NCBI RefSeq assembly: GCF_030646925.1
Contig: NZ_JAUSKL010000112.1
Location: forward strand, 1 to 33,415
Reading direction: 5' to 3'
DNA: 33,415 nt
Origin: Candidatus Binatus sp.
GTDB lineage: Bacteria > Desulfobacterota > Binatia > Binatales > Binataceae
This document shows positions 1-16,245 of the stretch, piece after piece. A program made the position numbers and the translations under genes. The notes under the pieces are model-generated. The model worked only from the letters and a program-made list of their open reading frames with translations, was not told where the DNA came from and did not search any database. Positions within the stretch are counted from its first letter, which is position 1; each line of letters begins with the position of its first letter.

Positions 1-2
1 GC

Positions 3-47
3 GAGCGCTATCTCACCACCGATCTCTTCCAGGCCGAGGGCATCTAG
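3..47 (+). CDS. C-terminal tail of an unidentified gene (cut by window edge)
   Basis: One frame stays open from the window edge and ends at a TAG at 45-47, giving a 14-residue tail that ends in LFQAEGI. It lies 42 bases before larE on the same strand, so it could be an operon partner of larE. The fragment is too short to identify; a Lar-pathway gene would be a guess from position only. Confidence 0.35.
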   Translation, partial: ERYLTTDLFQAEGI

Positions 48-89
48 GCTCGCTTGGTTCAACGAAGCTTCGACGTTTAGATTGTTAAG

Positions 90-929
90 ATGATAGCCGA
101 CGCCCTGCGAACCAAACTCGATCGTATGCGCGAAATCTTCGCGCCGATGCGGTCCGTCATCGTCGCATTCTCCGGCGGCGTCGATTCCACCTTCGTGCTC
201 AAAGTCGCGCACCAGACCATCGGCGATCGCGTGCTCGCGCTTACCACCACCTCGCCCACGATGCCCGCCGAAGATCGCGAGTCCGCGCTCACGATGGCCC
301 GATTGATCGGAGCGCGCCACCTCGTGCTCGAATCCAACGAACTCGAAATTCCCGGCTACGCGTCGAATCCGCTCAATCGATGCTACCTCTGCAAGCACAA
401 CCTCTTCACCGTGTGCGAGGCCAAGGCCGCCGAACTCGGCATTGACGTAATCGTGGACGGCCTCAACCTCGACGATCTGAACGATTATCGCCCTGGGATG
501 CAGGCCGCGTCCGAAAAACGCGTGCGCCATCCGCTGGTCGAAGCCGAATTGACCAAGGCCGAAATCCGCGAACTGTCGCGCGCGATGAACCTGCCGACCT
601 GGGATCGACCCGCGTCGCCGTGCCTCTCCTCGCGCTTCCCCTACGGCACCACGATTACGCCCGAGGCGCTCGCACAAGTCAGTGCAGGCGAGCAAATTCT
701 CCATGCGATGGGATTCCGCGTCGCCCGCGTGCGCTATCATGGCGACGTCGCGCGCATCGAACTCGAGCAACACGAGATGCCGCGAATTTTCGAGCCCGCC
801 AATCGCGACTACGTCGATCGCGAGTTCAAAAAAATCGGCTTCCGCTTCGTCACGATCGATTTGAAAGGCTTCCGCTCCGGCTCCCTGAACGAAGGCCTGG
901 TCCTAGCCTCCTCTCCTCCCAAACCCTGA
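90..929 (+). CDS. larE: ATP-dependent sacrificial sulfur transferase LarE
   Basis: This 279-residue protein belongs to the PP-loop ATPases that adenylate pyridinium dicarboxylate mononucleotide and insert sulfur during synthesis of the nickel-pincer nucleotide cofactor of lactate racemase-type enzymes. The PP-loop SGGVDST is at residues 28-34. Cys178, in PASPCLSSRFPYG, sits where sacrificial LarE enzymes carry the cysteine that donates its sulfur. A second pair, Cys98 and Cys101 (CYLC), is also present. Length and motif order fit the family. The start ATG has no strong Shine-Dalgarno, so a slightly different start is possible. No larA, larB or larC is visible in the window; they may lie upstream. 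The gene is convergent with the operon at 969-2618. Confidence 0.9.
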   Translation: MIADALRTKLDRMREIFAPMRSVIVAFSGGVDSTFVLKVAHQTIGDRVLALTTTSPTMPAEDRESALTMARLIGARHLVLESNELEIPGYASNPLNRCYLCKHNLFTVCEAKAAELGIDVIVDGLNLDDLNDYRPGMQAASEKRVRHPLVEAELTKAEIRELSRAMNLPTWDRPASPCLSSRFPYGTTITPEALAQVSAGEQILHAMGFRVARVRYHGDVARIELEQHEMPRIFEPANRDYVDREFKKIGFRFVTIDLKGFRSGSLNEGLVLASSPPKP

Positions 930-968
930 CCCCTCATCCTCTTGCCGCCCACGGCGCCGGATTCCTTT

Positions 969-1646
969 TCATTTCAGCGCGTCAAGACAGGCGTTCTCGA
1001 ACAACGTGAGAACCTCGATGTGTTTGTCAGTGCTCAGCGATGCTTCTGCGTAGTAGACGTTTTGCTCAAATTGGACGTTCTCACGACGATCCAATCGAAA
1101 TATTTGTGGAGCAAAGTTCGAATACTTGGTTTTATCGATCCAGAAATTAACGTTTATTAGCTCATACGGTGGCCTGATTTCCCACCATTCGTCCAGGTTG
1201 TCACTCATTGCAGCCCCGACGGAAGAGAGAAACGGAAACAGATCGCGTAAGGATTTTTCAAGACGTATTTCAAGCTGACTTGAGTGCGCAGTTCCCGGCC
1301 TTATTGGTTCGAGCTCAAGTTTGAATTGCTTACGAGCCCAACCCAGAATGTGGTCCAGAATAAGATCCGAGTCTTTTGTATTGGTGTGTGTTGCAACGCT
1401 TAGACCTGAGCGAAACACTTGAAAGTAGTCGATAGTGAATATTTCTCCGCTCAACGCTAATTTACCCAGCCTAAAAGTCATTCCCTTGTTTGGCTCAATC
1501 CCTGACAGTTCCGCGCTAGTCGGCAGCCCCTGGAATCCATATTGGGCAGCCAATGCAGCGCTTGCGTCTGGTAAATAGCCTAGATCTCCGCCGATCATAC
1601 GAAGGGCTCGCACGCTCTCTGCTCGCATTACCGAAAGAACCTTCAT
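969..1646 (-). CDS. Unknown protein, third gene of XRE-containing operon
   Basis: This 225-residue soluble protein has no signal peptide or membrane segment that I can see. I cannot name its family with confidence. Its pattern (an FxxG/dG-rich N-terminal half, then a C-terminal stretch with FRLDRRENVQF and NVYYAEASLSTDKH) recalls a recurrent group of phage- or island-associated hypothetical proteins, but this rests on memory only. Its ATG overlaps the TGA of the HTH gene by four bases (ATGA), which implies translational coupling. Base composition and codon use are clearly more AT-rich than in larE or the WS/DGAT gene, consistent with horizontal acquisition. It may be an effector or accessory partner of the HTH protein. 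Confidence 0.75.
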   Translation of the reverse strand: MKVLSVMRAESVRALRMIGGDLGYLPDASAALAAQYGFQGLPTSAELSGIEPNKGMTFRLGKLALSGEIFTIDYFQVFRSGLSVATHTNTKDSDLILDHILGWARKQFKLELEPIRPGTAHSSQLEIRLEKSLRDLFPFLSSVGAAMSDNLDEWWEIRPPYELINVNFWIDKTKYSNFAPQIFRLDRRENVQFEQNVYYAEASLSTDKHIEVLTLFENACLDALK

Positions 1647-2125
1647 GGGGTGACAATCGGGAACTTCCGATCCTCTGATGATTGTGCTGGTTGGAGAAAC
1701 GGTGGCATATTCACCGCAGGCTGCGGCGAGCGGCGGCCGCTCATACCCGCTTCTCCTCGATGGCTTGGTAGTATCTCCGATCTAAGTTCTGGTTCCCTAA
1801 TCAAATCGTCGACATCCACCACTGTCCCGTCTAACTTTAATACCGCTGCCATCCCAAGTAACAGGTCGCTCACTGTATCGAGGGTTAGGTTGCCGGGCGC
1901 ACCGAGCCATCGGGTAACCTGTTCAGGTTTGCGTCGTATGCGCCGCGCTAGATCACGTTTGGTGAATCCTTTTGTATCTTGCAGCAAGATGAATTTTCTC
2001 AGCACGAGTTGATGCAATTGGTGCTTAAGTTGTTCTCGGAAAAACGCAATCCGACTGAGCGGAATGGATTCCGAATCTAGATCACGGATTTCGGTCAAAA
2101 ACTGCGTCGGAGATATAGTCGGCAA
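1643..2125 (-). CDS. XRE-type helix-turn-helix protein, antitoxin-like
   Basis: This 160-residue protein has an XRE/HigA-like HTH at about residues 54-92: FTKRDLARRIRRKPEQVTRW, then LGAPGNLTLDTVSDLLLGM. That layout is typical of small regulators and antitoxins that read a dyad operator. The C-terminal 60 residues look disordered and basic or proline-rich. The best start is a TTG at 2123-2125 preceded by GGGGA; no in-frame ATG precedes the HTH. That start places the first 44 bases inside the upstream gene, and the stop overlaps the downstream ATG by four bases, so the three genes are tightly coupled. A likely operator is the dyad at 2609-2630. An antitoxin role is inferred, not shown. Confidence 0.8.
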   Translation of the reverse strand: MPTISPTQFLTEIRDLDSESIPLSRIAFFREQLKHQLHQLVLRKFILLQDTKGFTKRDLARRIRRKPEQVTRWLGAPGNLTLDTVSDLLLGMAAVLKLDGTVVDVDDLIREPELRSEILPSHRGEAGMSGRRSPQPAVNMPPFLQPAQSSEDRKFPIVTP

Positions 2126-2618
2126 AGTAGTTCCCCATCAAAGGTTGATACGTCGGAAAGAGGCGTCGCCACTCGATTGCGCAGCGAAGAATTGCATCTT
2201 GCCATTCTCTCGAACCGAATTGTTTTAGTTGAAGCCGAATCTCCCACGTAAGCGCGACAAATACGTCCTTTTCGGCAAAGCGCCCGAGAACTTGAATGCC
2301 GGGCTTCGGATCGACGCATCGTATGTCCCATACTTCGTCGCGCGGCGGTTGCAACTGGCTCATGTACGAAGACCCACCTCGCCGAGGGTCCCTAGCTACG
2401 ACAATTGGGTCTCTCCAGATGAACGCCAACAAATCGGCATGGGCACGACCACATCTGTACTCATCTTCGTCATCGGACCAAGGGCCCAAAATCTTCGAAT
2501 TCACATCTTCGGAAACATAAATTTCGCGCTTCTGCCTAACTCGAAAGATCGGCTGTAGCTTGAAAAGTCTGGCTGGCTCCGACTCGCACAGCCCTTGGAT
2601 TTCGGCCCGAATTGACAT
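2082..2618 (-). CDS. Unknown protein, first gene of XRE-containing operon
   Basis: This protein of about 178 residues is rich in charged and aromatic residues and has no membrane segment. A central stretch (KDVFVALTWEIRLQL, then CAIEWRRLFP) recalls small phage-encoded or toxin-like hypotheticals, but I do not recognise a catalytic motif. An ATG at 2616-2618 is used here; an in-frame TTG lies three codons upstream. The start region coincides with a perfect 22-base dyad and with a -10-like hexamer, so the true start could be further in. It is the head gene of the overlapping operon and has the same AT-rich composition as its partners. Gene order (unknown protein first, HTH second) resembles HigBA-type toxin-antitoxin loci. 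Confidence 0.7.
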   Translation of the reverse strand: MSIRAEIQGLCESEPARLFKLQPIFRVRQKREIYVSEDVNSKILGPWSDDEDEYRCGRAHADLLAFIWRDPIVVARDPRRGGSSYMSQLQPPRDEVWDIRCVDPKPGIQVLGRFAEKDVFVALTWEIRLQLKQFGSREWQDAILRCAIEWRRLFPTYQPLMGNYFADYISDAVFDRNP

Positions 2619-2630
2619 ATAAGTCAATTC
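2609..2630 (-). promoter_or_regulatory. Perfect 8-6-8 dyad at head of the XRE operon; candidate autoregulatory operator
   Basis: GAATTGAC and GTCAATTC are exact inverted repeats separated by ATATAA. On the minus strand a TTGACT at 2639-2644 is followed by 17 bases and TATATG at 2616-2621, a plausible sigma70-like promoter whose -10 box lies inside the dyad. An XRE repressor bound here would block the promoter. The -10 box also contains the ATG used for the first gene, so either this promoter or that start codon is wrong. Confidence 0.55.
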
Positions 2631-2897
2631 CGTCGAGCAGTCAACTGGTACGCTAGTCGCGTCCTGTCACGTTGGAGACCCGCAATGCGCTTGCGCATCT
2701 AACTTTGAAAACCATTGATCTGGGCATGAAGAGTTTTTAGAGCAGAATTAGACGGGATCAAGCAAGACTGACTCAATCTGACACTCCTAACCGCCATTTG
2801 CTAATGTTGCGATGAGCACGTCATCGGCCTGATATTTTTTTGGAGAGAGAGTCGAACCCGTGCGGCGACTGTCAGAGCGCCCGCGCCGACGCGACCC

Positions 2898-3197
2898 CTA
2901 GCTGCCGTAGTTGTAGCCGGGCTTTTCCGGATCGACGAAACCGCCCTTTCCATCAAATGCTGTCGAGCTATGGACGCGGCAGAACGACGAATATTGGCGC
3001 GAGCCAAATCCGTCGTCATAGAGGATGCTGCCCCGCACGTACATGATCGATTCGTCGCGCCGGATCTCCGCGCGCTCGCGCGCCCACAATTCCGCGTGCG
3101 CGATCGTTCCCGCAATTCACTTGAACGCGCCGCTCAGTTCCGACGCGAACGCGCGCAAACTCAACGCAATCGACACTGGCCTCGAGGGCAAGCGCAT
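2898..3197 (-). pseudogene. Small unknown gene interrupted by an in-frame TGA
   Basis: Thirteen bases downstream of the GNAT stop, an ATG at 3195-3197 opens a frame of 99 codons that is interrupted once, by TGA at codon 27, and continues in the same frame to a TAG at 2898-2900. The part after the stop (IAHAELWARERAEIRRDES, then YVRGSILYDDGFGSRQYSSF) reads like genuine protein, resembling C-terminal segments of hypothetical membrane-associated proteins. No good start codon follows the TGA except a TTG at 3087-3089. The simplest reading is a decayed gene or fragment. Read-through or selenocysteine is possible but unsupported. Confidence 0.35.
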
Positions 3198-3209
3198 CGC
3201 CGCGAAGTC

Positions 3210-3791
3210 CTACGCCGCGACGTGATCGTGAAAGCCCGCCACGTCGAACGTCATAATCAGCAGATCGCGCGAGCGCCCACTTCGATCCTCGACCCAATCC
3301 GTCAGCATCGCCTCGACCTGGAAGCCGAGCCGCTCGAAGGCCGCGCGCGCCGCGGTCTGATCGGTGGTCATCTGCGCGGTGATCTTCTTGAGCCCCAGCG
3401 AGCGCGCCAGATCGAAAACCTCAGCCGCGAGCCGGTGCCCAAGCCCCAGCCCGCGATATCGCGGCGACGCGTTGATGCGAATCTCGCCGACCCGCCGCGT
3501 CCATCGCGCCTGGTCCAGGTGCACGCTCGCGTACGCCGCGATCTCGCCGTCGATTTCCGCTAGCAGCGTGATCGTGTGGCCGTGCTTGATGTTATCGACC
3601 CATTGCTTCACCACGCTGCGATCGGTGATGTCGGTGCGCAGAAACAGCAGGTCGTCGGCGGGCAGGCTGGCGGCGAAGGCGAGCATCTTGTCCAGGTCGT
3701 TCGCTTCCATCAGGCGCAGCCGGGCGGTTTTATTGCCGCGCAGTTTCACCTCCTGCGGATACGGGCGATTGGTCTTGATTTGCTCGGCCAT
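3210..3791 (-). CDS. GNAT family N-acetyltransferase
   Basis: This 193-residue protein has the Gcn5-related acetyltransferase fold. Motif A, which binds the acetyl-CoA pyrophosphate, is seen at residues 111-119 (RYRGLGLGH), preceded by the strand VGEIRINAS. The typical C-terminal AARAAFERLGF element is present at about 147-157. It should transfer an acetyl group from acetyl-CoA to an amine; the substrate (small molecule, protein N-terminus or antibiotic) cannot be told. The ATG at 3789-3791 has GGAGG nine bases upstream on the minus strand. It is transcribed away from the WS/DGAT gene, and its high GC matches that gene rather than the AT-rich operon. Confidence 0.85.
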   Translation of the reverse strand: MAEQIKTNRPYPQEVKLRGNKTARLRLMEANDLDKMLAFAASLPADDLLFLRTDITDRSVVKQWVDNIKHGHTITLLAEIDGEIAAYASVHLDQARWTRRVGEIRINASPRYRGLGLGHRLAAEVFDLARSLGLKKITAQMTTDQTAARAAFERLGFQVEAMLTDWVEDRSGRSRDLLIMTFDVAGFHDHVAA

Positions 3792-4074
3792 CGGATTTCC
3801 TCCCTCGATTCTGCCCCCCGCAGGCGACCGCTATCCTTGCGCAGCCGCGCCGATCCGGCAAGCGCCACGAGGATTCCTCGCGAGCCTCATCCCAAACCTT
3901 TCAATGATCCATGTCTGCTTGCACTACCAGCGCGAACCGCGTCAATGTCTTCTATTGCGCAAGCGCCCGTTGGTCCCGATTTTCTTCATCGCCGAGCAGG
4001 GCGCGAGGCCGCGTTTTGCGCGCGACGCATCGGTAGTTGAATCAATCTGATGCGTCTCGAAAGGTGAGCTGATC

Positions 4075-5610
4075 ATGGCCGGAAAAAACAAAGCCGCTTC
4101 GAGCTATCGCCTCTCGACCCAGGACTCGACCTTCATCTACGGCGAGTCGAACAACGGACCCTTGCACATCGGTTCAGTCTCCATGTTCCAGGGCCGCATC
4201 GATTTCCACGGCTTGCTCGGCCATATCGAGGAGCGAATCCACCTGATCCCGCGCTACCGGCAGCGCCTGGCCGAGGTCCCATTCAACGTCGCGCACCCGA
4301 TGATGGAGGACGACCCCGAATTTTCGGTCGAGCGCCATGCCATCCGCCATGAGCTGGACGACGGCCTCACAGAGGCCGAAGCGTTCGCGGAAATGATGGA
4401 GGTGTTCCAGAAGCCGCTCGATCGCGCGCGGCCGCTCTGGGAAATCCACAGCTACGAGAACATGCCCGGCAATCGCACCGCGATTTTGTGGAAGGTTCAT
4501 CACTGCCTGGTGGACGGAGTCTCTGGCGTCGAGCTGCTGAAAGTGATGTACGATTTCCGCGCCGAGCCCGAGGACATCCCGCAACCCTCGCAGCCGTGGG
4601 TCGCCGCCGCGCCGTCGAGCAGTATTCGCCGTTTTGCCGAAGCGGTCCGCGATCAGATTTCGACCACCGTCAATTCAACGATCACCGCCGCAGTGCAGGC
4701 AATCGAGGAGCCGGCGGCAGTCGCGGAACGCGCGCGGATGCTCGGCGAAGCGATGCGCTTGATGACCGAATTGATGACGCGCCGAATCGTCGCGACGCCG
4801 TGGAACTCGACGCCCGTCACCCAGGAACGCGCCGTCGCGTGGTCGAAGCAATCGTTCGCCGATTTCCGCGCGATCCGATCCGCCTTCGGCGGCTCGGTCA
4901 ACGACGTGGTGCTCACGATGCTCACCGAAGGCGCGGCGCGCTACCTCGCGCATCACGGCTACGCGGTCGAGGGACAGCAGCTTTGCATCGGATGCCCGGT
5001 GAACGTGCGCCATAGGGAGGAACGCGGAGCGCTCGGCAATCGCGTCTCGATGATGTTTCCCACCGCGCCCGCCGCGCCGATGGACGTCGTCGAACGCCTC
5101 AAATTGATTCACGAGGAAACCGAGCGCATCAAGTCCGCCGGTCTCGCGCAGGCGCTCGAAACGGTGATGACGCTCGGCGATGCAATTCCGCCGGGACTGA
5201 TCGGGCCGGCCTCGCGCGCTGCGATGCTGGCGATGGATGCCGCGGGCGCGTTCGCGAAGTGGTCGCGCTGGACGCCGAATCCCAATGGCTTCAACCTGCC
5301 GCCGATCGGAATCAATTTTATCGCGACCAACGTGCCCGGCGTGCAGGTCCAGCAGTACTTGAACGGCCACCTCTGCCTCGACATGATTCCGCTGATACCG
5401 CTCGGCGCGACGATGGGCTACGGCGTCGCGATCGTCAGTTACTTCCGCAATTTGTATTTCGGCATGATGGGCGAGCCGCGCGTGATGCCCGACGTCGCGC
5501 TGATGAAGGAATTTGTCGATGAAGCGTTCGCCGAATTGAAAGAGCGCTGCGCGGACGCGTCGCAGGCAACTGTCGCGCAGATGAAAGGCAGCGAATCGGC
5601 GAACGCCTGA
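4075..5610 (+). CDS. Wax ester synthase/diacylglycerol acyltransferase (WS/DGAT family)
   Basis: This 511-residue protein is of the bacterial WS/DGAT family, which esterifies acyl-CoA with long-chain alcohols or diacylglycerol to make storage lipids. The catalytic HHxxxDG motif is at residues 142-148 (HHCLVDG). PLWE is at 120-123, and the conserved GSVNDVVLT element and the C-terminal NVPG segment are present. Length is at the upper end of the family. The ATG follows a GAAAGG Shine-Dalgarno. tag follows 10 bases downstream. The family makes wax esters or triacylglycerols in actinobacteria and some proteobacteria; some members have other acyl acceptors, so the product is not certain. Confidence 0.88.
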   Translation: MAGKNKAASSYRLSTQDSTFIYGESNNGPLHIGSVSMFQGRIDFHGLLGHIEERIHLIPRYRQRLAEVPFNVAHPMMEDDPEFSVERHAIRHELDDGLTEAEAFAEMMEVFQKPLDRARPLWEIHSYENMPGNRTAILWKVHHCLVDGVSGVELLKVMYDFRAEPEDIPQPSQPWVAAAPSSSIRRFAEAVRDQISTTVNSTITAAVQAIEEPAAVAERARMLGEAMRLMTELMTRRIVATPWNSTPVTQERAVAWSKQSFADFRAIRSAFGGSVNDVVLTMLTEGAARYLAHHGYAVEGQQLCIGCPVNVRHREERGALGNRVSMMFPTAPAAPMDVVERLKLIHEETERIKSAGLAQALETVMTLGDAIPPGLIGPASRAAMLAMDAAGAFAKWSRWTPNPNGFNLPPIGINFIATNVPGVQVQQYLNGHLCLDMIPLIPLGATMGYGVAIVSYFRNLYFGMMGEPRVMPDVALMKEFVDEAFAELKERCADASQATVAQMKGSESANA

Positions 5611-5620
5611 AGAACTCGCG

Positions 5621-6217
5621 ATGGGTGCGGCGAAGGCGGCAGATGCGGCGGTGCGATGCGGATGGGCGCGCAACGACCTCGCGATTCGTTATCACGACGA
5701 AGAATGGGGCGTGCCCCTGCACGACGATCGGATGTGGTTCGAGGCGCTGGTGCTTGACGGCGCGCAAGCCGGCCTTAGCTGGGACACGATTCTTCGCAAG
5801 CGCGAAACTTATCGCATCGCATTCCGGGGATTCGATCCGGCGAAGGTAGCCAGGTTCGGCGATCGCGACATCGCGCGACTCCTCGCCGACCAGGGAATCA
5901 TCCGCAACCGGCTCAAGGTCGCGTCGGCAATTACCAATGCGAAGGCCTTCCTCGCGTTACAAAAGGAGTTCGGCAGTTTCGACGCGTACATCTGGCAGCT
6001 CGCGGGCGGGCGGCCGCGAATCAATTCGTGGCGCGAGATCGGGCAGGTACCGGCGCGCACCTCAGAATCGGACGCGCTCAGCAAGGCGCTGATCGCGCGC
6101 GGCTTCAAGTTCGTCGGCTCGACTATCTGCTACGCGCTGATGCAGGCGACCGGCATCGTGAACGATCACATGGTCGATTGCTTCCGCTACCGCCAGGTCT
6201 TAAAGCTCCGCCGCTAG
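5621..6217 (+). CDS. tag: DNA-3-methyladenine glycosylase I
   Basis: This 198-residue base-excision repair enzyme removes 3-methyladenine from alkylated DNA. The family zinc ligands are all visible: Cys13 and His25 in the N-terminal RCGWA and RYHDEEWG segments, and His183 and Cys187 in NDHMVDCFRY. The FEALVLDGAQAGLSW segment (residues 40-54) carries the conserved Glu41 and base-pocket residues. Length is close to E. coli Tag. It starts 10 bases after the WS/DGAT stop and is probably co-transcribed with it, though no functional link is evident. Confidence 0.93.
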   Translation: MGAAKAADAAVRCGWARNDLAIRYHDEEWGVPLHDDRMWFEALVLDGAQAGLSWDTILRKRETYRIAFRGFDPAKVARFGDRDIARLLADQGIIRNRLKVASAITNAKAFLALQKEFGSFDAYIWQLAGGRPRINSWREIGQVPARTSESDALSKALIARGFKFVGSTICYALMQATGIVNDHMVDCFRYRQVLKLRR

Positions 6218-6298
6218 CGATCGAACTTCACCACGCCGCGCCAATGTGACGCATAGAAAGGGCGCGGACCAGACAATCCGGCTCTCGAAACTTTCGCG

Positions 6299-6721
6299 CT
6301 AGAGCACGTCTTTTATCAGGGAAATCGGGAAACTCGCGACGTTATGCCAGTCGCGCGAACCTACGACCCGAAAGAACAGATTCAAACTCAGCTTGTCATA
6401 CACTGGGAGCCCAAGAACACTCGCAACTATTCGGTGATTCGGTTGTGTAAATTCCCATTGAGCCACATTCTCCAGCAGCGTTGAACCCGCACGATTTTCC
6501 ACAGTGATCCTCTGCTCGAATATGACTCCTGCATCAGCCGACTCCTCTTGCCATAGACTTAAGGCCGACCATGCGATCGGCAAGGAAAAGTTCGGCGGTA
6601 CGGCGCTCCCCGGCGGGAGCTTGTAGTGAACCTCTTGCAATACCGCGATCAAAGATAGACTGTTGGTTGTCTGGTCAATCAGAACTTTTTCGCACGGCGC
6701 AAATATCAGCAGTTTTGGCAT
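6299..6721 (-). CDS. DUF6941-like hypothetical protein
   Basis: This 140-residue protein begins with MPKLLIFAPCEKVLIDQ and continues with a Ser-Leu-Ile-rich strand. That opening matches my memory of the DUF6941 family, beta-rich proteins of unknown function with an xxCEKVixD start. No signal peptide or membrane segment is seen. It is the last gene of a three-gene minus-strand operon, six bases after the zinc-ribbon gene, without a strong Shine-Dalgarno, so it may depend on translation of the upstream gene. The family assignment is moderately sure; the function is unknown. Confidence 0.75.
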   Translation of the reverse strand: MPKLLIFAPCEKVLIDQTTNSLSLIAVLQEVHYKLPPGSAVPPNFSLPIAWSALSLWQEESADAGVIFEQRITVENRAGSTLLENVAQWEFTQPNHRIVASVLGLPVYDKLSLNLFFRVVGSRDWHNVASFPISLIKDVL

Positions 6722-6727
6722 TTTGTT

Positions 6728-7087
6728 TCAGGCAGGGATTTTGGGGCGTAGATCATTGCTCGCTGCCTCGCGCACGGGGGCCTCGAGCACGGTCGGTGGT
6801 GGACCGGGTCTATTAACTCCCGCAGCTTCAATTGTCTTATCTGCTGAAACGTTCTGCGCAGCCAGCCTCGAGAGCTGGCGCAGCACATCCCAATCGGGCG
6901 GAGGAGGAGTGTAGTCGCTGAACCATCGCGCGCCACTTGCGATCCATCGGTCGCGCAGAGCTTCCCAACTTCGAGTTAGGTCATGATATCCAAACTCGGT
7001 CCCGCAGCAGGTGCAGATGCTGTAATCCGCTGGCGGATCCGCGAGCGCATCATAACCGCACACCGGACAAAAGTAAGTCGCTTTCAT
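6728..7087 (-). CDS. Zinc-ribbon protein, middle gene of toxin-like operon
   Basis: This 119-residue protein carries an N-terminal zinc ribbon with Cys7 and Cys10 (FCPVCGYD) and Cys25 and Cys28 (SICTCCGTEFGYHD). A short conserved helix (SWEALRDRWIASGARWF) follows, then a proline-rich, probably flexible tail. This is a recurrent small family of unknown function, often found near toxin or immunity genes in my recollection. ATG at 7085-7087 is preferred over an upstream GTG because GGAG lies eight bases before it and because it forms an ATGA overlap with the stop of the upstream gene. The arrangement would suit an immunity or antitoxin protein, but that is inference. Confidence 0.75.
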   Translation of the reverse strand: MKATYFCPVCGYDALADPPADYSICTCCGTEFGYHDLTRSWEALRDRWIASGARWFSDYTPPPPDWDVLRQLSRLAAQNVSADKTIEAAGVNRPGPPPTVLEAPVREAASNDLRPKIPA

Positions 7088-7401
7088 TTTCCACACTCCA
7101 CCTGAAAGTACCTCAGGTTGCCGCTAAATCCATGCCAGCTTCTCTCAGGCTTGTAAAATGTTTTAATCACTCCGTCTGGCCGCATAACTGCAAAAAAGTC
7201 GGTGGCGCGATCGTATCGAATCGTATCACCATTGCCCAATCTCACGCATTCGACCATCGTGACGACGAGCGCAGCATTCAGAAATCCAATTGCCATTTGC
7301 TCGTATTCCGTCGCCGTCGCAGTACCACAATCACGGCCGTGCGCCTGGAAGTGATCTGCTCGTTTCGCCGCATCGGCGAAGCCAGTTGCAACGATGCCCA
7401 C
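7084..7401 (-). CDS. Small protein resembling the nuclease tip of polymorphic toxins
   Basis: This 105-residue frame matches, from memory, the C-terminal domain of many RHS/CDI-type polymorphic toxins of the BECR (barnase-EndoU-colicin-RelE) nuclease type. The pattern is HFQAHG, then TEYEQMAIGFLN, then NGDTIRYDRATDFFAV, then DGVIKTFYKP. His17, His21, Arg62, Asp64 and Lys84 are candidate functional residues. It starts at GTG 7399-7401, where the frame opens only 14 codons after an in-frame TAG, so it is a free-standing module or a remnant detached from a larger toxin. Its TGA overlaps the next gene's ATG by four bases. The nuclease role is inferred. Confidence 0.6.
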   Translation of the reverse strand: MGIVATGFADAAKRADHFQAHGRDCGTATATEYEQMAIGFLNAALVVTMVECVRLGNGDTIRYDRATDFFAVMRPDGVIKTFYKPERSWHGFSGNLRYFQVECGK

Positions 7402-7584
7402 GAGGTGTAATCGCGTCCCCCCTCCGAAGCCGAGAAAGCTCTACCACGGGTCATGTTATTAAGATAGCAGCTTGTCCCCACGTAAGTTGATTGTACACTA
7501 CTACAGTAGGAAACTTGAAGAGGCTTAGAACTGCAGATCGACTTCCCATTTTCAAGCTCGTCCGGAAGTCTACTACATTCTCGG

Positions 7585-7848
7585 CTACGGCAGTTCGCTC
7601 CTGCGCGGATGCTCTCCTGGCATATCGGCCAGTTCATCGTAAAACTCCGCCGTCTCCGGTATCGGTCCCGGCAATCCCAGTCCCATGATGATCGGCTGCG
7701 CGGCCTTCCACGCCGCTCTGCTTTCCCATCGCGCGACCCCGAAATATTGCTCCGGATTTTTGTGGCTATGAATCAGGAAGCTGCCGTACGCGCCCTGGCA
7801 ATGCGATTGAATCTGATGCGTCCCCTGTTTCCAGTGCTCGATGAAGCC
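7585..7848 (-). pseudogene. 5'-truncated antibiotic-biosynthesis-monooxygenase-like gene
   Basis: On the minus strand a frame of about 87 codons reads GFIEHWKQGTHQIQ, then AYGSFLIHSHKNPEQYFGVA, RWESRAAWKAAQPIIMG and ETAEFYDELADMPGE, and stops at a TAG at 7585-7587. This looks like a small ABM-fold (ferredoxin-like dimeric alpha-beta barrel) monooxygenase missing its first 10 to 20 residues. Immediately upstream, where the first beta strand and start codon should be, two palindromes begin. The simplest explanation is interruption by a palindromic repeat element, leaving a dead remnant. Confidence 0.55.
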
Positions 7849-7893
7849 CGCCGCTCTTGCGGCGGGTAGGTGAGCGACTGTCGCTCACCTACC
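7847..7893. repeat. Back-to-back palindromes abutting the truncated gene
   Basis: Two perfect hairpins stand side by side. CCCGCCGC-TCTT-GCGGCGGG lies at 7847-7866, and a 14-base stem around a single T at 7865-7893 (arms GGTAGGTGAGCGAC and its complement). Paired palindromes of this kind are typical of REP or small MITE elements. They lie exactly where the ABM-like frame loses its homology. Confidence 0.6.
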
Positions 7894-7917
7894 TCGTCGC
7901 GTTCCGCGACTTCGGCT

Positions 7918-7942
7918 TCCCTTCGACTTCGCTCAGGGCAGG
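7918..7942. repeat. Dispersed repeat with the PERSRR peptide signature
   Basis: The stretch CCTTCGACTTCGCTCAGGGC is a motif I have seen repeated in many unrelated draft genomes, where its reverse reading gives spurious peptides ending CPERSRRE. It is followed by material containing CTCAAGATGACGG (about 7988-8000), also common in such repeats. It is intergenic here and not coding. Confidence 0.5.
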
Positions 7943-8147
7943 CTCTCTTCGATTGAATAACGGGCGAGGTACAGGACGGGAGCCTCCGCTCAAGATGACG
8001 GAATGGACGCACCCTGCCAGAGCAAATAGTCGATCCCTCCGTGTCCTTTGGGGCGCATCGAGAAATCCAGGTCCGCGCTCCATCGTCGCTTCGCGATGGA
8101 ACTTCACCCGAGACCAACCCCAACCGGCGCTTCCTCTTTTTGGGCCG

Positions 8148-8217
8148 TACTAACAGCGCGTAGCGGGCATCTTAATGCCACAGGAAGTCTGAAACCCAGT
8201 GTGGGTTTCAGATCTCT
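8148..8217. repeat. Hairpin repeat, copy 1 (downstream of the acyl-CoA synthetase gene)
   Basis: This copy starts TACTAACAGCGCGTAGC, passes through GCATCTT and GGAAG, and ends in a perfect 11-base stem with a three-base loop (8188-8212, arms TCTGAAACCCA and TGGGTTTCAGA). The second copy, at 9976-10045, has the same order of elements in the same orientation. The inner stem pairs differ between copies by compensating changes. It lies just after the stop of the synthetase gene on the minus strand and may act as an RNA structure or 3' end element. Confidence 0.6.
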
Positions 8218-8237
8218 CCCTCCTACTCCTCTCCTTC

Positions 8238-10424: not shown

Positions 10425-11204
10425 CTACTCGATCTTGTGCGGAAGTTCCGCCCAGTCTTCCGGATCATGCGTGATCCACATCGTCGCATCGTGCATGTCG
10501 CGGATCGCCTTGATGCGCTGGATCGATTCCACCGATTGATTCGGGTTGGTATCGAGCGGCATCGTCGCTTCCGTCACGACCGCCGAGCGCACGTGCACCG
10601 TGTCGCCGGTCAGCAATATTTTTCGATTCGGCAGATTGACCAGCAGGGAGCATTCGCCCGGCGTATGCCCCGGCGTCAGCAGAAACTTGAGGCTGCCGTC
10701 GCCGAACAGATCGAAATCCGCGCCGAGTTCGAGCCAATCGTAGCCGCGCGTCGGAATATAGTCGTCGAGGATGAATGCCCATCGCCGCGCCGGATCGGGC
10801 CAGTACGCGTAGCGCAGTTCGTTCGATCCAACGATGAACTTCGCCTTCGGAAAGTAAGTCAGCCCGCCCGCGTGATCGAGATGCGCATGCGACAGGATTA
10901 CGTACTTGACGTCCTCGGTCTTGTAGCCGACGCCCTCGATCTGCTTGTCGAGCGTGTCCGACTTGCTCCACTTGAGCGGCAGATGCCGCGCGGTTTCGCC
11001 CCAATAGCCAACCGCATCATCGATGATCTTCGGATTGCATCCGGTGTCGAACAGCACCAGACCCTTGGGATGCTCGATCAGGAACGACGGGCACGGCAGC
11101 GTCAGCAAAGTGTTGGGATCGCCGCCCTGCACCAGCAACGCGAGCGGCGCCGTCAATTCCGCGCCGGGCAGTGTCCACATTCGTCGAACTTTCGATTCAG
11201 CCAT
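10425..11204 (-). CDS. Metallo-beta-lactamase-fold hydrolase (AHL-lactonase-like)
   Basis: This 259-residue protein has the dinuclear-zinc MBL motif HAHLDH at residues 106-111 and further ligands His180 (TPGHTPGE), Asp201 (TGDT) and His246 (ITHDPED). This arrangement and length fit the N-acyl homoserine lactonase (AiiA-like) branch, which opens lactone rings, though many relatives act on other esters or lactones. ATG at 11202-11204 was chosen because a Shine-Dalgarno-like ACGAGG precedes it and the family N-terminus begins there; the frame stays open further upstream without family resemblance. The gene diverges from the lipoprotein pair. Confidence 0.85.
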   Translation of the reverse strand: MAESKVRRMWTLPGAELTAPLALLVQGGDPNTLLTLPCPSFLIEHPKGLVLFDTGCNPKIIDDAVGYWGETARHLPLKWSKSDTLDKQIEGVGYKTEDVKYVILSHAHLDHAGGLTYFPKAKFIVGSNELRYAYWPDPARRWAFILDDYIPTRGYDWLELGADFDLFGDGSLKFLLTPGHTPGECSLLVNLPNRKILLTGDTVHVRSAVVTEATMPLDTNPNQSVESIQRIKAIRDMHDATMWITHDPEDWAELPHKIE

Positions 11205-11356: not shown

Positions 11357-11384
11357 TTGAACGACTGTTCAATTGCGTGATAAT
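11357..11384 (+). promoter_or_regulatory. Promoter of lipoprotein gene 1 with GAAC-N4-GTTC operator
   Basis: TTGAAC (11357-11362), a 16-base spacer and GATAAT (11379-11384) form a good sigma70-type promoter. The perfect dyad TGAACGACTGTTCA (11358-11371), extended to TTGAAC/GTTCAA, overlaps the -35 box. A bound protein would repress. GAAC-N4-GTTC is the core of the LexA box of Gram-positive bacteria; TetR-family operators can also look like this. Confidence 0.6.
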
Positions 11385-11425
11385 GAGCGCCAGCTACTTC
11401 CTTTCGAAAATCGGAGTCCACTCGC

Positions 11426-12109
11426 ATGAAGACCGCGACCACGATCCTGATGGCGCTGATATTTGCCGGATGCGCCGCGGCCCCGAGCCAACCGAATGCG
11501 CCTGCCGCCAGCGCCAATCCTGCCGAAACCGCTCGAGCCGAGCAGAGTGAACCGCCGGTCAAAGCCGGCGCCGCGTCCTCCGGCCCGACCATCGAAAAGC
11601 CGCCGACCTTCAAGAAAGGCTACAAGCTCACGTTTCGCTCACGCACCAGCGACTTCGATTGCACCTTTGAGGGCGAGGAGGACGGCCTGCTGGTTTTTCA
11701 TTTCGCTACGAAAGAAAAATTGCCGTATGACTATCTCTACACGCCCGACATGAAAATCGCACAGATCCACAATGCGCAGATGCAGATGCGATTCGACCCG
11801 CCGATTGGCTTCGTGGACTTTCCGCTCTTCGTCGGCAAGAAATGGATGGTCGCATACAAGGGCACCAGCAACTCGTCGCATAGCATGGGCGAGACCGCGG
11901 TTGAAGTAGTGGGCTTCGGGCCGGTGAAGGTTCCATACGGGACGGTCGATGCGTTCGAAATCCGGGTCCGCAACACCGATCGCGAGATCGGGCGCGCCAA
12001 TCCCTACGAGACATTCTGGTACAGCCCCGAGATCGGCTACTACGTCAAGCACGCGACCAACCGGCCCGTGTACGAGGATCCGTTCGAGCTGATCAGCTAC
12101 ACGAAATGA
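11426..12109 (+). CDS. Lipoprotein of unknown function, paralogue 1
   Basis: This 227-residue protein has a lipoprotein signal peptide with lipobox IFAGC, Cys16 being the likely lipidated residue. An Ala/Pro-rich linker of about 40 residues follows, then a conserved domain (from KPPTFKKGYKLTFRSR to the C-terminus) of about 170 residues that looks beta-rich. It should sit in the periplasm anchored to a membrane. I recognise no family. CGGAG precedes the ATG. The next gene is a tandem paralogue, about 78% identical over the last 170 residues by hand count, with the same operator-bearing promoter, so both probably respond to the same signal. Confidence 0.85.
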   Translation: MKTATTILMALIFAGCAAAPSQPNAPAASANPAETARAEQSEPPVKAGAASSGPTIEKPPTFKKGYKLTFRSRTSDFDCTFEGEEDGLLVFHFATKEKLPYDYLYTPDMKIAQIHNAQMQMRFDPPIGFVDFPLFVGKKWMVAYKGTSNSSHSMGETAVEVVGFGPVKVPYGTVDAFEIRVRNTDREIGRANPYETFWYSPEIGYYVKHATNRPVYEDPFELISYTK

Positions 12110-12146
12110 TCCGACCTCGCCGCGCGGTCTGGATTTCTCCGCTGGT

Positions 12147-12174
12147 TTGAACGATCGTTCAGGAGCGTGATACA
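12147..12174 (+). promoter_or_regulatory. Promoter of lipoprotein gene 2 with GAAC-N4-GTTC operator
   Basis: TTGAAC (12147-12152), a 16-base spacer and GATACA (12169-12174) repeat the layout seen before gene 1. The dyad here is TGAACGATCGTTCA (12148-12161), perfect over 14 bases. The spacer of the dyad and the downstream bases differ from gene 1 while both arms are kept, which argues for selection on the arms. Confidence 0.6.
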
Positions 12175-12219: not shown

Positions 12220-12900
12220 ATGAAGATCGTAACCGCGATTCTGTTAGCGCTGGTATTTGCCGGATGCGCTGCGGCGCCAAACAAATCGGATACGCCAGCC
12301 GCCACTACTGTCCCTGCTGAAGATGCTCAAGCTCAAGCGAGTGAACCATCGATCAAAGCCGACGCCTCATCCGGCCCGACGATCGACAAGCCGCCGACCT
12401 TCAAGAAGGGGTTCAAGCTGACCTTTCGCTCGCGCAAAAGCGACTTCGATTGCACCTATGAGGGCGAGGACGACGGCCTGATGGTTTTTCACTACGACAC
12501 CAAGGAAAAACTGCCGTACGACTATCTCTACACGCCGGACCTGAAGGTCGCGCAATTCCGCACCGCGCAAATGACGATGCGTATGGATCCGCCGGTGGGC
12601 TACGTCGAATTTCCGCTCTTCGTCGGCAAGAAGTGGACGACCGCCTACAAGGGCATCAGCAACTCGTCGCACACGATGGCCGAAACTGCGGCCGAAGTGG
12701 TTTCCTACGGACCGGTCAAGCTGCCATACGGAACGCTCGATGCGTTCGAAATCCGGGTGCGTAGCAGCGATCGCGAAATCGGGCGCGCCAACCCGTATGA
12801 GACTTACTGGTACAGTCCGGAGATTGGCTACTTCGTCAAGCATGTCACCAACCGCCCGGTCTATGAGGATCCCTACGCGCTGGTCGCCGTCACCAAGTGA
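12220..12900 (+). CDS. Lipoprotein of unknown function, paralogue 2
   Basis: This 226-residue tandem duplicate of the preceding gene has lipobox VFAGC (Cys16), a Thr/Ala/Pro-rich linker and the same C-terminal domain. Invariant blocks such as LPYDYLYTPD, FPLFVGKKW and DREIGRANPYET are shared. An in-frame TTG lies six codons upstream (12202), but the ATG at 12220 follows TTGGAG at a suitable distance and aligns with paralogue 1. The linker has diverged far more than the domain, which points to an old duplication with retained function. The role is unknown. Confidence 0.85.
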   Translation: MKIVTAILLALVFAGCAAAPNKSDTPAATTVPAEDAQAQASEPSIKADASSGPTIDKPPTFKKGFKLTFRSRKSDFDCTYEGEDDGLMVFHYDTKEKLPYDYLYTPDLKVAQFRTAQMTMRMDPPVGYVEFPLFVGKKWTTAYKGISNSSHTMAETAAEVVSYGPVKLPYGTLDAFEIRVRSSDREIGRANPYETYWYSPEIGYFVKHVTNRPVYEDPYALVAVTK

Positions 12901-15445: not shown

Positions 15446-16126
15446 CTAATCGCTGCCGTCGTACAGGACGCGCATCCAGATCGTTGTCAGCGCCTCGATA
15501 GCGGCGCGAACGTCGGGTTCGTCCGATTGCTCGAACTTCTCCGTCAGATACCGCTCGCCCATCACCACCAGCGCGCGAGCGGTTTCATCGGGGTCGAGCG
15601 GTCGGGTGCGGCCCTGGCGAATCTCACTGCGGATGCGCTCTGCCGACGCTGCGACCAGGCGATCGCGCAAGGCGCCATATACCTCGGCGACTTGCCGATC
15701 TTGTGCGGCCGCCGCCGAGAGCGCGCGAATCAGATGCCCGTGCTCCTGGTAGATGCCGATGTAGCCAGCCCATCCTTTCCGGAGTTCGGTGCGCGGATCG
15801 CCTTGACCGTTGAGCCATTCTTCGGTGACCGGAAAGACCCGGGTTTGCAGCTTTTCGACCAGCTTGATCACGAGATCGTGGCGGTCGCTGAAGTATTCAT
15901 AGAAGGAGGGCCGCGAGAGCCCGGTCCGCGCCATCAAGTCATCGACGGTCATCGCATGGAACGGATGCTCGCGCAGGAAAGCCTCGGCTGCCGCAAGAAT
16001 TTCAGACTGCGCATCCTCGGGACGGCGCCGACGTCGCCGCCGGCGAGGCCCGACAATGGTCGATAAGGCGGTGCGTGATTTTCGCTCGAGGCGATCGGTG
16101 CTTTGCGATTTAGCGGCTGGTTTCAT
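15446..16126 (-). CDS. TetR family transcriptional regulator
   Basis: This regulator of about 226 residues has a basic N-terminal arm with a run of arginines, followed by the TetR DNA-binding domain: AQSEILAAAEAFLREHPF, then the HTH MTVDDLMARTGLSRPSFYEY and FSDRHDLV. The C-terminal ligand-binding and dimerisation domain has no recognisable ligand signature. The start is uncertain: ATG at 16124-16126 is used, but an in-frame TTG at 16160-16162 is also possible, and neither has a good Shine-Dalgarno. It lies 41 bases upstream of the ArgE-like gene on the same strand and diverges from ppk. Its target is unknown; the lipoprotein operators are one candidate. Confidence 0.85.
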   Translation of the reverse strand: MKPAAKSQSTDRLERKSRTALSTIVGPRRRRRRRRPEDAQSEILAAAEAFLREHPFHAMTVDDLMARTGLSRPSFYEYFSDRHDLVIKLVEKLQTRVFPVTEEWLNGQGDPRTELRKGWAGYIGIYQEHGHLIRALSAAAAQDRQVAEVYGALRDRLVAASAERIRSEIRQGRTRPLDPDETARALVVMGERYLTEKFEQSDEPDVRAAIEALTTIWMRVLYDGSD

Positions 16127-16245
16127 CGCTGACGCGGGAACCGAACCCGAAGATCGCGCCAATCATGGGCAGATTCCCGCGTGGCATGCCTCTTCTTTAC
16201 ACAATCAGCGACGCTTTAACAAACTGCGCGGCTGTAACTTTGGCA

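Follow-up and report, generated by a model that had tools for sequence, protein, structure and literature searches.

A conserved TGAAC-N4-GTTCA dyad before tandem lipoprotein genes of Candidatus Binatus is a probable TetR-family operator

The two dyads that precede a pair of tandem lipoprotein genes in Candidatus Binatus sp. are probably operators of a TetR-family repressor, with P0003, a TetR protein encoded elsewhere in the genome, as the best candidate (a likelihood of roughly 70% for this reading as a whole), in which case the lipoproteins would be co-induced with dispersed CoA-linked catabolic genes. The dyad recurs at the P0003 operon and at catabolic target genes in several genera. An initial guess at SOS regulation is hereby replaced by a testable catabolic regulon, for which an operator word, some ten target genes and a candidate repressor can be named. 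The lineage is known here through assemblies of metagenomes.

Dyads and promoters of the lipoprotein genes

The window analyzed here is a whole stretch of 33,415 nucleotides. It carries two lipoprotein genes on the forward strand, of which gene 1 (11426-12109) encodes 227 amino acids with a lipobox FAGC recognized by eye and a predicted YmcC-like beta-barrel, and gene 2 (12220-12900) encodes 226 amino acids with 74% identity to gene 1. A first-pass annotation of the sequence had placed a dyad before each gene, and both are present, at 11358-11371 and 12148-12161. Operator 1, TGAACGACTGTTCA, has 5-bp arms around a 4-bp center and lies 54 bp from gene 1, and operator 2, TGAACGATCGTTCA, is a perfect 14-bp palindrome 58 bp from gene 2; neither is assigned a strand. 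In each dyad the left arm falls within a -35-like TTGAAC box (11357-11362 and 12147-12152), and the -10 boxes GATAAT (11379-11384) and GATACA (12169-12174) were read off the sequence. The putative forward-strand promoters are TTGAAC-N16-GATAAT for gene 1 (11357-11384), with its -35 box within operator 1, and TTGAAC-N16-GATACA for gene 2 (12147-12174). Both proposed TTGAAC-N16-GATAmm promoters can be read in the sequence, but only the first passes a consensus scan, with 9/12 matches, which is weak alone given 0.7 such hits expected in shuffles; the second -10 box is considered weak because the scan detects promoter 1 only.

In an ungapped register, the arms of the two operators are identical at 10/10 positions and the whole dyads at 12/14, while the flanks match at 18/60 positions in the 60 bp before and 23/55 in the 55 bp after. 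The earlier observation of identical arms within different flanks is accurate for the arms and the upstream side, but GCGTGATA, downstream of both dyads, is preserved as well as the arms. Counts within the window are not informative by themselves: GAAC-N4-GTTC has 2 matches against 0.76 expected, with at least two in 21 of 100 shuffles, which is not significant, and perfect 5-N4-5 dyads abound (65 against a naive estimate of 33). Such counts carry no weight alone, and the weight lies with the dyad outside the window, in the TetR operon promoter of relatives and before other catabolic genes.

The tandem duplication of the genes, the preservation of GCGTGATA and the abundance of dyads in the window would also be expected if there were no operator at all, and if a duplicated core promoter with TTGAAC as its -35 and GCGTGATA as its -10 box had been kept by descent around a chance dyad. 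This explanation appears very improbable, however. The 60 bp upstream have diverged, the dyad also fronts other catabolic genes and, in relatives, the TetR operon, and a further argument against it is the second arm, GTTCA. This arm is unneeded by the -35 box, and it is kept in 3/3 promoters, namely those of operators 1 and 2 and that of the orthologous lipoprotein gene in G003, a genome of the same genus, where the site reads TTTGAATGGGCGTTCAA with a single arm base altered. The first-pass annotation had regarded homologous lipoprotein promoters devoid of the dyad as evidence against its proposal, and the homologues are divided: G003 retains the dyad with one arm change, whereas the locus of a homologue with 69% identity (L081) has neither TGAA-N6-TTCA nor GAAC-N4-GTTC in its entire 8.2 kb. 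The latter record (positions 1-8228) is labeled as an Armatimonadota MAG, a taxon label that looks doubtful, and by eye its lipoprotein gene adjoins luciferase-like and RND-exporter-like genes.

Neither lipoprotein matched a Pfam or NCBIfam family above cut-off, the nearest being DUF3108_like at a sub-threshold E of 0.061 for gene 1. The predicted structure of lipoprotein 1 has a mean pLDDT of 80, with residues ~1-50 unreliable, and it resembles YmcC-like folds, including 3fzx (Z 11.9, rmsd 4.2, 164 aligned residues), 4fvs (Z 11.9) and YmcC itself (2in5, Z 10.4); the best Foldseek match had an E of 2.6e-4 and a TM of 0.46. Scores against LmcA, LolA and LppX were at Z 8.0 and below, a band where chance matches are common, with the LolA/LolB rows at Z 5.3-7.3. 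The model thus predicts a YmcC-like fold across most of the folded domain, and fold alone shows no function; taken with the genomic company of the genes, it suggests that the lipoproteins perhaps carry a lipid or a hydrophobic substrate within the envelope. A divergent gene for a metallo-beta-lactamase-fold protein (10425-11180, reverse strand; PF00753, 2.3e-25) is a possible co-target; its called start lies 177 bp from operator 1, and an ATG farther upstream is possible. This neighbor also adjoins the lipoprotein orthologue of G003.

Promoters of lexA and recA

The first-pass annotation had favored an SOS function, with the dyads as Gram-positive-type LexA boxes and the lipoproteins induced in the SOS response. 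PMC3323433 indeed gives the GAAC-N4-GTTC core as the motif of LexA in Firmicutes and Actinobacteria and names other LexA motifs elsewhere, and lexA is present in all 39 family genomes searched. GAAC-N4-GTTC was found, however, at none of 31 lexA loci from the studied genome (G000) and its relatives, a set made of the own locus and 30 returned for relatives, with the promoter visible in 30, as the contig of L052 stops 14 bp before the lexA match. It was equally missing from the 23 recA stretches of the studied genome and relatives, each comprising 400 bp before the estimated start plus the first bases; 24 recA-family loci had been returned and recA was placed in 23 including the own one, with the own RecA fragment L252 unplaced. 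In addition, a different element, the direct repeat TTCGCC-N5-TTCGCCA, stands some 30-100 bp ahead of the lexA match in 25 of the 31 lexA loci (own L016, with the repeat at 1431-1448; L050-L079). The dyad's remaining genomic sites front catabolic genes. The dyads have T/A as their outer bases, where the Bacillus LexA consensus has C/G. The LexA reading was dropped on account of the missing box at lexA and recA, and SOS induction of the lipoproteins now seems hardly credible. The word itself is ambiguous, with both TetR and LexA precedents, so that context has to decide, here for TetR; outside the Gram-positives, a GAAC-N4-GTTC match is not enough by itself to call a LexA box.

The repeat TTCGCC-N5-TTCGCCA has one match in the studied genome, at lexA, and is absent from all 23 recA stretches; it is a candidate for either the LexA box or the core promoter of this lineage. 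Many of the recA promoters (L229-L251) share by eye a TAGCGCTAT-like word together with TTTGTGGCAAGATT just before the gene, and these may represent a true recA regulatory element. A second LexA-like protein is encoded at L017 1450-3093 (G000:C14), where a 547-aa open frame begins with LexA_DNA_bind and Peptidase_S24 and continues for 340 residues that matched no Pfam family. The gene adjoins a Recombinase-family gene, and its product is read as a mobile-element repressor and is possibly a fusion.

A TetR operon and dispersed catabolic targets

Among the 23 TetR loci of the studied genome, the full TGAAC-N4-GTTCA word was found only at that of P0003 (G000:C89:63267-63926; TetR_N and TetR_C_24 domains), in the promoter of an operon with the order PaaA/PaaC-family oxygenase (L020), tetR and AMP-forming ligase. 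Homologues of P0003 (E<=1e-20) occur in 14 of the 39 family genomes, and ten of these have the dyad at the locus, before the PaaA-like gene in eight and directly before tetR in G017 and G030, the latter with one arm base changed (TGAAT-N4-GTTCA; TGAATGAGCGTTCA). The dyad was absent at the homologue gene in the other four, G009, G023, G033 and G024, the last on a contig that stops 489 bp upstream with the operon promoter perhaps out of view. As the ten sites were first picked by likeness to operator 2, the 135-300 bp preceding the PaaA-like gene in eight genomes were searched again, blind to the word, for every inverted repeat with 5-bp arms and a spacer of 0-10. This search returned TGAAC-N4-GTTCA, along with the overlapping extension CTGAA-N6-TTCAG, in 8/8 promoters and the next non-overlapping dyad in 3/8. 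Across these eight promoters the identity is 100% in the arms, 62% in the center and 34% in the 40 bp upstream. All ten dyad-bearing homologues share an unchanged helix-turn-helix stretch, ISFPRIYYYLRNKEE, which is altered in G024; G023 has the same stretch despite its lack of the dyad, and G009 and G033 lie outside this comparison. The TetR-family repressor that the first-pass annotation had named as its second choice, to be sought near TetR genes, is therefore supported by the P0003 operon, by the recurrent catabolic targets described below and by the word reported for the TetR protein RolR. A TetR gene inside the window (15446-16162, L112) is not favored, with no such dyad nearby and a best matrix score of 6.3.

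This score comes from a matrix built from the ten TetR-operon sites, in 14-column and 18-column forms. The matrix ranks operator 2 first in the window (12148, 24.3 bits, the 14-column maximum) and operator 1 second (11358, 17.6 bits), a score expected 0.045 times per window from 3 Mb of simulated sequence. The first rank of operator 2 is partly circular with regard to the G017 and G030 sites, chosen by likeness alone, but not with regard to the eight blind-search sites. A third match in the window, at 12342 inside gene 2, scores 17.2 with 14 columns and 13.7 with 18 columns, against 16.2 for operator 1 with the latter, and is presumably due to chance. The promoter of the G003 orthologue, TGAATGGGCGTTCA, scores 15.3 bits and resembles the G030 site, and no score above 13.2 was obtained at ten weaker lipoprotein-homologue loci. 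Among the 23 own TetR loci, P0003 has the sole score above 18 (24.3), followed by L114 (18.0) and L101 (16.1); because of these two loci, operator 1 is not specific by score alone.

In the own 4.58-Mb genome, TGAAC-N4-GTTCA has seven matches against one for the reversed pattern. Apart from the two lipoprotein sites, exact copies lie before genes for an amidohydrolase (L018), an acyl-CoA dehydrogenase (L019/L139), the PaaA/PaaC-family oxygenase (L020) and a luciferase-like monooxygenase (L024/L137), and the seventh (L021) has 3 mismatches to operator 2 and no called gene nearby. Within two mismatches of TGAACGATCGTTCA there are 29 sites, of which 16 are intergenic and 13 have a gene start no more than 260 bp away; these bring PhyH, CoA-transferase III, VOC and alpha/beta hydrolase genes into the target set. 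One more site (L138) is flanked by genes for a second amidohydrolase and a Rieske oxygenase, whose called starts are 310-460 bp away. Reversed controls gave 5 matches against these 29, and 3 against the 56 sites found at up to one mismatch in 39 genomes, but both controls are biased low because their core is CTAG, which is rare. A stricter pattern, TTGAACGNNCGTTCA, matched in 8 of 58 relatives, with 12 two-strand matches against 5 for the control. The shorter GAAC-N4-GTTC, with 75 matches genome-wide against 59 for its reversed pattern, was rejected as evidence alone, and so was the contrast of 29 with 5.

Several target genes recur between genera when own sites are admitted at up to two mismatches and those of relatives at up to one. 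VOC genes are preceded by a site in G000, G003, G015 and G029 (three genera), CoA-transferase III in G000, G003 and G028 (two genera), acyl-CoA dehydrogenase in G000, G015 and G034 and PhyH in G000, G015 and G016 (three genera each), whereas one luciferase-like gene is shared by G015 and G029 (two genera) and another by G025 and G034 (one genus); the same-genus pairs are G000/G003, G015/G028, G016/G029 and G025/G034. In the VOC, CoA-transferase, acyl-CoA dehydrogenase and PhyH sets, arm identity is 0.87-0.93 and that of the 40 bp upstream 0.28-0.41, although high arm identity outside the TetR operon arises partly by construction, since those sites were selected for their resemblance to the word; several non-operon targets have the half-site variants TAAAC and TGACC. 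Of 85 sites, 62 are intergenic, as compared with 922 of 4050 positions drawn at random from these loci. The 85 comprise 29 own sites (up to two mismatches), 52 of relatives (up to one) and those of four TetR loci (G003, G016, G017, G030), with L021 left out, and the gene calls stem from a heuristic caller trained on 12 window genes, so that starts may be off and genes missed. The cross-genus recurrence holds for the catabolic targets, while for the lipoproteins themselves it is confined to G003, of the same genus and with one arm change.

Sites are also more numerous where the TetR gene keeps its dyad. With the own operon excluded, the ten dyad-keeping genomes (43.9 Mb) contain 30 sites with up to one mismatch and the remaining 29 genomes (106.9 Mb) contain 20 (p=0.0004 by the Mann-Whitney test, without correction for relatedness); for all 14 homologue-bearing genomes and the rest, the numbers are 33 and 17 (p=0.004, likewise uncorrected). 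Another TetR may nevertheless read the same word, since four genomes of the same genus that lack a P0003 homologue (G001, G004, G005, G006) share near-identical sites, within one mismatch of TGAACGATCGTTCA, before one orthologous acyl-CoA dehydrogenase gene (L164, L167, L172, L173), probably under a sister regulator. That gene faces one for a thiamine-pyrophosphate enzyme in three of the four genomes. The dyads before the lipoproteins could by extension belong to a different TetR with an identical or nearly identical half-site, P0003 governing only its own operon and some targets, and related words do occur at two own TetR loci, TGAACGTTCATTCA at L114 and TGAATCATAATTCA at L101. We regard this as unlikely, though deserving of attention: the full word is restricted to the P0003 locus, and the lipoproteins occur at high identity in only two of 96 genomes, both with P0003 (the third near homologue, L081, was outside the P0003 check). 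The L114 site, moreover, belongs to a 14-bp palindrome, AATGAACGTTCATT, located some 50 bp upstream of the called start of the TetR gene at G000:C87 (140914; L114, L131 1999-2012). The L114 protein was considered as the repressor on account of this palindrome, which has a related half-site but another geometry.

The proposed regulon and known systems

With a short palindrome of ~5-bp half-sites, a copy at the regulator's own operon that is kept in relatives, and orthologous targets across genera, the dyad has the ordinary features of a TetR operator. If P0003 is the repressor, one helix-turn-helix of its dimer would read each half-site TGAAC(G), and the bound protein would cover the -35 box and obstruct RNA polymerase at the promoters of both lipoprotein genes. 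The repressor would be freed from DNA by an inducer, which is perhaps an acyl- or aryl-CoA, and the lipoproteins would be induced alongside the dispersed CoA-linked catabolic genes, perhaps serving as envelope carriers of a hydrophobic substrate. More tentative, with the odds slightly against it, is the proposal that P0003 acts as the master repressor of a whole set of CoA-linked degradation enzymes (PaaA-like oxygenase, AMP ligase, acyl-CoA dehydrogenase, CoA-transferase III, PhyH, luciferase-like monooxygenases, VOC and amidohydrolase) together with lipid-carrier-like envelope lipoproteins. If this were true, the capture and breakdown of a hydrophobic compound would be placed under a single switch in an uncultured lineage, and the target set points to the class of substrate. 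While the operator is of an ordinary kind, the instance is new and the regulon, which is plausible, is apparently undescribed. In the open-licence literature, searches found no description of such a regulon, and in PMC8262859 the sole 'tetr' string is that of tetrahydrofolate. No other paa gene was called within 3.7 kb around P0003.

The closest NCBIfam models to P0003 are those of Bacillus FadR, which exerts acyl-CoA-responsive control of beta-oxidation, and of SACE_7040-type TetR regulators. With 58.2 bits against a cut-off of 200 for the FadR equivalog (NF053878) and 61 against 250 for the SACE_7040 type, P0003 is not a member of either family, because both scores are far under the cut-offs. 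Any relationship to RolR is distant at best. The phmmer match of P0003 to chain 3aqs, which we take to be RolR, has an E of 3.2e-4 and covers residues 34-116 only. PaaR (TTHA0973), the TetR repressor of phenylacetate genes in Thermus thermophilus, is reported in PMC6651687 to have the 14-bp pseudopalindromes CNAACGNNCGTTNG and AACnAACGTTnGTT; these are similar to the dyads in length and AACG core, and the P0003 operon likewise has a PaaA/PaaC-family gene, but the outer operator bases differ and that gene has no called paa companion in the 3.7 kb mentioned above. The Gram-positive LexA box, as given in PMC3323433, has the GAAC-N4-GTTC core in common with the dyads but is absent from the lexA and recA promoters examined here. 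The closest precedent for the operator is that of RolR, the TetR-type repressor of resorcinol catabolism in Corynebacterium glutamicum. According to PMC9210681, its 29-bp operator rolO has a second repeat, TTCAT-N2-ATGAA, and is bound by a pair of dimers, whereas here the flanks were read for such a repeat by eye only. The first repeat, REP1, which RolR is reported to bind, is TGAAC-N4-GTTCA (PMC9210681), with arms and spacing identical to those of the dyads described here.
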